DNA of 40,861 bases from Chloroflexota bacterium (lineage in GTDB: Bacteria; Chloroflexota; Dehalococcoidia; JACPQF01): NCBI GenBank assembly GCA_016190625.1, contig JACPQF010000033.1, positions 1 through 40,861 on the forward strand. The letters run 5' to 3'. Below are positions 13,283 to 14,590 of this stretch, piece by piece; the stretch's first letter is position 1; the number at the start of each line of letters is the position of its first letter. A program made the translations under genes and the position numbers. The notes beneath the pieces were generated by a model that saw only the letters and a list, made by a program, of their open reading frames with translations, made no database searches and was not told the origin of the DNA.

Positions 13283-13700
13283 TCAGCCAGTTGCAGCAAA
13301 GGCTTCGTGAAACGTCACGGTACCGCTGGCCTTGCTTTCCCCGAATGGCAACGCAAGGAAGTACTCTTGCGGAACGCCGTCAACAGCCAAGTCTGGGGGA
13401 CTCTGAAGCCGAAGCGTTCGTAGTAGCCAGGATCTCCAACGAGCACACAGCCTTTTGCGCCCAATGCTCTTAGCGAAGATAGACCTTCATAGATGAGGGA
13501 TTTTCCAATAGCTTGCCCCTGTAATTCCGGCAACACAGAGACGGGACCGGCACCGTACCAGCCCACGCTACCATCGGAAATGATCACAGGTGAGAAAGCT
13601 ATGTGGCCTACCACGTTGCTCCCGGATTCTGCAACCGAAAACTATCGCCTGGTCCTTTTCTTGCGGTGCGAGAAGTACCCGATGAAGATGGCAATACTTC
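13283..13700 (-). pseudogene. Degraded GNAT N-acetyltransferase
   Basis: VVGHIAFSPVIISDGSVGWYGAGPVSVLPELQGQAIGKSLI...GDPGYYERFGFR in one frame, then SPPDLAVDGVPQEYFLALPFGESKASGTVTFHEAFAATG* in another; upstream part (DQAIVF / VAESGSN) also out of frame. 5' boundary approximate. Confidence 0.65.
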
Positions 13701-13798
13701 ACAAATGACGGCGATTGGCGCACGGGATGCTTGGCGGGAACGTGCAAATACAGGCCGTTATGTGGTATATATGAGGCACCGCTCGATGGGGGTTGATA

Positions 13799-14440
13799 GT
13801 GAGTAGACGCAATACATGGGAATCGATATTGGGCCGGTTGCCCCGACTTAGAGTCGTTGGCATTCTTCTGGTCTTGGCCAGTGTAGTCTTTTCCTCGTTG
13901 GGCTGTGGCCCGTCCCAGACCGCGGCCCCTGGCGCGGTAGAGCACGTTAAAGGCAACCCGAACGCCCGCGTGGTCATTGAGGAGTGGACCGACTTGCAGT
14001 GACCGGCATGCGCAGCGGTCGCGCCGACGGTCCGTCGGTACATAGCCGAGCATGGCAATGATGTCAAGTTCGTCTTTCGTCACTTCCCCTTGAAGAACCA
14101 CGAGTTCGCCTTTGTCGCCGCCGAGGCGGTCGAGGCAGCCAACGAACAGGGCAAGTTCTGGGAGATGCAGGACAAGCTGCTGGCCGACCCGTCTCTGCTG
14201 AATCTTGTTTACATCGCGCGGACGGCGACGGAGCTCGGCCTGGACATGAAGCGATTCAACGCCGCTCTCGACGATCATAGATTCGCGCCCCGCATACAGA
14301 CCGACGTGGACGAGGGCAATCGCCTGGGTATCAACGCTACCCCAACCTTCATAGTCAACGGTCGCCAGTACCGCGGCGCTCCCTCCTACGAGCAACTGGA
14401 CGCGGCGGTGAAGGAGGCTCTCCAGCAAATCGGAAAGTGA
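13799..14440 (+). CDS. DsbA-like thiol oxidoreductase lipoprotein with in-frame TGA at the nucleophilic Cys position (probable selenoprotein, UPAC motif)
   Basis: ORFs 13793-14002 and 14090-14440 are in the same frame; read-through of TGA 14000-14002 gives ...VKGNPNARVVIEEWTDLQ[U]PACAAVAPTVRRYIAEHGNDVKFVFRHFPLKNHEFAF...GINATPTFIVNGRQYRG.... N-terminus is a signal peptide with lipobox-like SSLGC. Start GTG 13799 or TTG 13793. Confidence 0.8.
14024..14038 (+). promoter_or_regulatory. Candidate bacterial SECIS hairpin
   Basis: CCGACG-GUC-CGUCGG perfect 6-bp stem, loop GUC (GGUCC if the top pair opens), stem starting 21 nt after the TGA. Confidence 0.6.
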
Positions 14441-14590
14441 TCCTCCCCTGTCGGTTTCGTTTGTCACAAGAATCCCGCTCTCGCCAGCCAATCTGCCTCA
14501 ACTTGCGTCCGAGGGGCATTCCGTAGATAATACAACCTGGCAGCAGATACTGTAGGCGCCGGGGCGTCAGGCTTTCTCAGGCATCTGGCC

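Follow-up and report, generated by a model that had tools for sequence, protein, structure and literature searches.

DsbA- and DsbG-type selenoproteins with a UxxC motif have been on record since the Sargasso Sea and GOS surveys (PMC1088965, PMC2398784), and the NF041057 (Rcas_1661) family is named as a ‘DsbG-like protein’ of the UxxC type in a 2026 review (PMC13188914). The locus described here lies in a window of 40,861 nucleotides, which is the whole stretch of DNA that was analysed. Positions 13799-14440 of the window almost certainly encode a membrane-anchored, extracytoplasmic thioredoxin-fold selenoprotein, in which UGA would be read as selenocysteine (Sec) via a SECIS hairpin. Judged from its sequence, the gene would be a genuine member of the already known bacterial UxxC thioredoxin-fold selenoproteins. 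With the NF041057 thioredoxin-like (seleno)lipoprotein it shares the fold, the UxxC position, and the lipoprotein character (predicted here), and the read-through protein matched this family over residues 51-207 (E = 2.5e-24). However, its score was 86.2 bits against a curated cut-off of 190; because this is far under the cut-off, the protein is considered a relative and not a curated member of NF041057. Nine other Sec relatives, mostly tested as partial sequences, also stayed under this cut-off (89.5 to 148.6 bits). With the Sargasso Sea/GOS DsbA-like selenoproteins (PF01323) it has in common the DsbA-type thioredoxin fold, the UxxC motif, and a SECIS just downstream, but its best Pfam match is PF13462, with PF01323 second; the two are likened here by family and not by alignment.

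The forward-strand frame 13793-14440 contained one internal stop only, TGA 14000-14002. The residues around it read EEWTDLQ-U-PACAAVAPTVRRY, with the active site UPAC within DLQ-U-PAC. The first-pass annotation had described two same-frame ORFs split by this TGA alone, an unbroken cis-Pro loop (ATPTFIVNG), and a frame free of further damage. The sequence and its translation agree on each of these points, and no other lesion was observed across the 213 codons. GTG 13799 is the likelier start codon over TTG 13793, as GGGGG (13788-13792) stands 6 nt ahead of the GTG. The SSLGC stretch of the read-through protein is one that we take to fit the general PROSITE-type lipobox pattern, which would make the product a putative lipoprotein. 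Coordinates of all features are collected in Table 1.

Table 1. Features of the selenoprotein locus in the window.
Feature	Position	Strand	Basis
Candidate ribosome-binding site GGGGG	13788..13792	+	Sequence, inference; 6 nt before GTG 13799
Probable selenoprotein coding sequence, 213 codons and TGA stop 14438-14440	13799..14440	+	Pfam PF13462, E = 1.5e-29
Hydrophobic signal segment with SSLGC lipobox-like end; predicted lipidated Cys codon 13904-13906	13853..13906	+	Translation; lipobox pattern from general knowledge
TGA, probable selenocysteine, first UPAC residue	14000..14002	+	65 TGA and 47 TGC/TGT homologous sites
TGC, putative resolving cysteine of UPAC	14009..14011	+	C71 column invariant in the 41-protein alignment
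Predicted SECIS core, 7-bp stem, GUC loop	14023..14039	+	Loop start 27 nt past UGA, −9.3 kcal/mol
cis-Pro loop ATPTFIVNG	14336..14362	+	41-protein alignment: P182 invariant, T181 nearly invariant
307-aa antisense ORF, no gene on present evidence	13568..14491	−	Without Pfam match

The read-through protein (213 residues) matched Pfam PF13462 Thioredoxin_4 (E = 1.5e-29, 103.7 bits vs. a cut-off of 23.2) and, as second match, PF01323 DSBA (E = 2.2e-18, 67.2 bits vs. a cut-off of 25.6). The AlphaFold2 model, built from a 41-row alignment, gave a mean pLDDT of 87.5 (about 97 over the domain) and showed a thioredoxin fold with a helical insertion, forming a single domain across the TGA. In the PDB comparison, the nearest solved folds were DsbA-like oxidoreductases, namely 3GYK, Corynebacterium DsbA/TsdA, Wolbachia DsbA, BdbD, and ScsC; the earlier label ‘DsbA-like’ is therefore right as to the fold. 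The closest of these, the Silicibacter pomeroyi thioredoxin-like oxidoreductase 3GYK and the Corynebacterium DsbA/TsdA structures 4PWO and 7UNN, showed 27-28% identity. These three proteins have Cys where the window protein would have Sec. The active-site residues Sec/Cys 68 and Cys 71, together with Trp121 and Pro182, were invariant in the 41-protein alignment. Each piece on either side of the TGA is an open reading frame, and the two might be taken as separate functional products, a lipoprotein of 69 aa and a protein of 116 aa starting at 14090. Each piece alone, however, would be a cut thioredoxin fold, the modelled domain spans the TGA, and the Cys relatives are single polypeptides, so that this option can practically be set aside. 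The 307-aa antisense ORF was also tried as a gene and rejected, as it matched no Pfam family.

Long frames split by a TGA are common in the window, where 12 TGAs were preceded by 60 or more open codons and followed by 100 or more; therefore, the case was built on homology and RNA structure rather than on the open frames themselves. Three results exceed chance, namely the Pfam homology spanning the TGA (E = 1.5e-29), the rule of TGA or Cys at 112 sites, and the SECIS statistics. For the second of these, homologues were sought in 393 genomes from the class and 400 from the phylum, and the codon was read along the tblastn alignments. At the 112 homologous sites, including the window’s own, there were 65 TGA codons (many in genes from one genus with tandem copies, hence non-independent), 47 TGC/TGT codons, and no other codon; neither TAA nor TAG occurred at any of the 112. 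The successive batches gave 56 TGA (window included) and 29 Cys, 4 and 15, and 5 and 3 sites, the first batch also holding three sites of the distant L087. The TGA thus occupies the place of the first Cys of CPxC in thioredoxin-fold relatives, as the first-pass annotation had claimed, the homologous codons being TGA or Cys only. A genome-contig search with one protein gave a sole match, a distant Myxococcales relative with Cys. Closer kin of the window’s genome or of genome G026 were searched for and none was found.

A 73-row tree, computed with the trait column masked, placed the window gene with L015, L098, and L099, all of which carry TGA, with moderate support (92/70). The Sec/Cys label needed at least 8 changes on this tree, 4 of them forced by well-supported branches; across the family as sampled, Sec and Cys have interchanged four times or more. 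It is an evenly balanced question whether the clade of the window gene and these three relatives is a separate unnamed family of Sec-containing Thioredoxin_4 lipoproteins, representing one of several independent Cys/Sec switches, in a phylum for which this protein family is a main selenium outlet (tandem Sec arrays, a UxxU form, and cyclophilin fusions). The wider family, with its at least four Sec/Cys switches and its Cys forms beside Sec forms, is a natural set for studying the benefit of selenium in extracytoplasmic disulfide exchange.

The hairpin with a GU-containing loop, noted earlier just downstream of the TGA, is present with an exact span of 14023-14039 (GCCGACG-GUC-CGUCGGU, 7 bp), its loop beginning 27 nt past the UGA, with an energy of −9.3 kcal/mol. 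The bacterial SECIS model comprises a loop of 3-9 nt, a stem of 4-16 bp, a G in the first two loop positions, a distance of 16-37 nt from the UGA, and an energy of −7.5 kcal/mol or lower (PMC13188914). The hairpin falls within all of these limits and it also covaries. The three nearest Sec relatives showed hairpins at the same offset (UCCGAUC-GUG-GAUCGGC, GCCGGUG-GUC-CACCGGC, and GCCGAUA-GUU-CAUCGGC). Over the four-member clade 93% of the cells were paired and three pairs were changed on both sides; when the partner was slid by one to three columns, pairing went down to 18-50%. The shuffle control was modest with four sequences, 7-10 of 500 shuffles reaching the observed values.

Under synonymous recoding with the window codon usage, such a stem arose at this place with a frequency of 0.08% (0.0008) in the window gene and of about 3% in each of the other three. 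Of the 60 Sec genes, 45 had a stem of 7 bp or longer (4.2 expected), compared with 6 of the 44 Cys genes (2.0 expected). A stem of 6 bp or longer at +25 to +27 was seen in 31 of the 60 and 0 of the 44, respectively. The mean best-hairpin energy was −9.9 kcal/mol for Sec genes and −4.8 kcal/mol for Cys genes. The pairing probability of the window hairpin was 0.62-0.97 in eight fold windows and 0.38 in one short fold window, and the minimum-energy structure of the tightest fold window (14000-14052) was without the hairpin. Minimum-energy folding alone was uninformative (z = −0.05 and −1.36); the comparison with Cys relatives and the synonymous recoding were informative. The Rfam scan of the window gave no match over the cut-off, which does not count against a SECIS.

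These results also bear on whether the TGA arose by mutation or misreading of a Cys codon (TGC/TGT), leaving two fragments of a pseudogene or of a gene with a sequencing or assembly error. Such an origin would fit a draft genome, a TGA that is one base away from TGC/TGT, and the two fragments that gene callers would give. It is rendered very improbable by the TGA that the three nearest relatives, which are from independent genomes, carry at this residue and that occurs at 65 sites overall, by the lack of TAA and TAG at the homologous sites, by a frame of 213 otherwise lesion-free codons, and by the conserved, covarying SECIS after the TGA.

The source genome is a 3.18 Mb draft of 160 contigs and is 64.9% complete. 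All four genes of the selenocysteine machinery named in the first-pass annotation were present in it, namely selA (563 bits vs. a cut-off of 268), selB (348 bits vs. 242), selD (410 bits vs. 125), and selC with a UCA anticodon (69.8 bits vs. an Rfam cut-off of 47), the last also called by ARAGORN as tRNA-SeC tca. The selD gene itself (L045; G000 contig 129, 7030-7956) showed an in-frame TGA at LSHGAG-U-ACK. Sec is common at this site in SelD proteins, where it is tabulated as UxxK (PMC13188914); therefore, the genome would hold at least one further selenoprotein gene. Among 12 related genomes carrying Sec forms or close Cys forms, 11 had SelB above the cut-off; it was not found in G419 (88% complete), the genome of one Sec-type relative.

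selC-like tRNAs that insert Cys are known, and other relatives of the window protein have Cys at this position, which would be in line with decoding of the UGA as cysteine and not selenocysteine by the UCA-anticodon tRNA. Against this, selA, selB, and selD are full-length, the tRNA-Sec is above the Rfam cut-off, and a SECIS, which is required only by SelB-dependent insertion, was found selectively in TGA genes. We consider cysteine decoding to be highly unlikely. The selenocysteine reading recovers a gene that is split or left out in standard annotation, and the TGA-or-Cys test together with a covarying SECIS shows the reach of sequence alone in settling such calls.

For the selenoprotein, the following mechanism is proposed. 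The ribosome would reach UGA 14000-14002, and SelB with Sec-tRNA(UCA) would bind the GUC-loop hairpin, by which selenocysteine would be inserted. Selenocysteine insertion directed by SelB would thus allow the 213-residue protein to be completed. The protein would then be exported and a lipid probably attached at the SSLGC cysteine. The Sec residue (U of UPAC) would make the nucleophilic attack, the second Cys would then resolve the mixed selenenyl-sulfide, and disulfides would thereby be exchanged with substrate proteins. The protein most likely works by exchanging disulfides on the outer side of the cytoplasmic membrane, Sec serving as the nucleophile.

The direction of this exchange may be that of an oxidase (DsbA role with quinone-linked recycling) and not of a reductase or isomerase. 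This is compatible with the selenoprotein reading, and we hold it tentatively, at slightly short of an even chance. DsbA, BdbD, and TsdA were among the best structural neighbours, and cyclophilin-fused relatives of the Sec form hint at a protein-folding role. ScsC and FrnE types, however, were also among the structural neighbours. VKOR was searched for in the source genome (64.9% complete) and not found, whereas CcdA/DsbD-type transporters were found there; because of this, in a genome that is about 65% complete, a reductase or isomerase role is mildly favoured. Contig 80 of the same genome carries a frame (L128:1924-4200, − strand) for a possible redox partner, a 758-aa protein in which a long N-terminal part is joined to a DsbD-type transmembrane domain. 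This frame adjoins that of a c-type-cytochrome-like lipoprotein.

Several other arrangements were observed among the relatives. In L043, L054, and L082 (genus g21, family f21), two to four Sec DsbA-like genes lay in tandem. Some of the g21 array genes had UGGC and not UPxC, and most were followed by a GU-containing hairpin of their own at a position of about +26. L066:498-1031 (− strand) had two active-site TGAs giving UPVU, a possible double-Sec protein, and its near kin had UPVC. In L113:976-2016 (− strand), L115:1495-2535 (+ strand), and L119:3-977 (− strand), a Sec thioredoxin domain was followed in frame by a cyclophilin-type peptidyl-prolyl isomerase domain.

In the window, a gene for a PALP enzyme precedes the selenoprotein gene and one for a BadF/BcrA-type CoA activase follows it. 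No shared operon was seen in the neighbourhoods compared, and the G026 neighbours differed from those of the window. Only in G500 and G419 was a common element observed, an MFS transporter gene lying near the relative in both. A short GNAT acetyltransferase-like frame, below the Pfam cut-off and possibly a remnant, was present at 13315-13614 on the reverse strand of the window.
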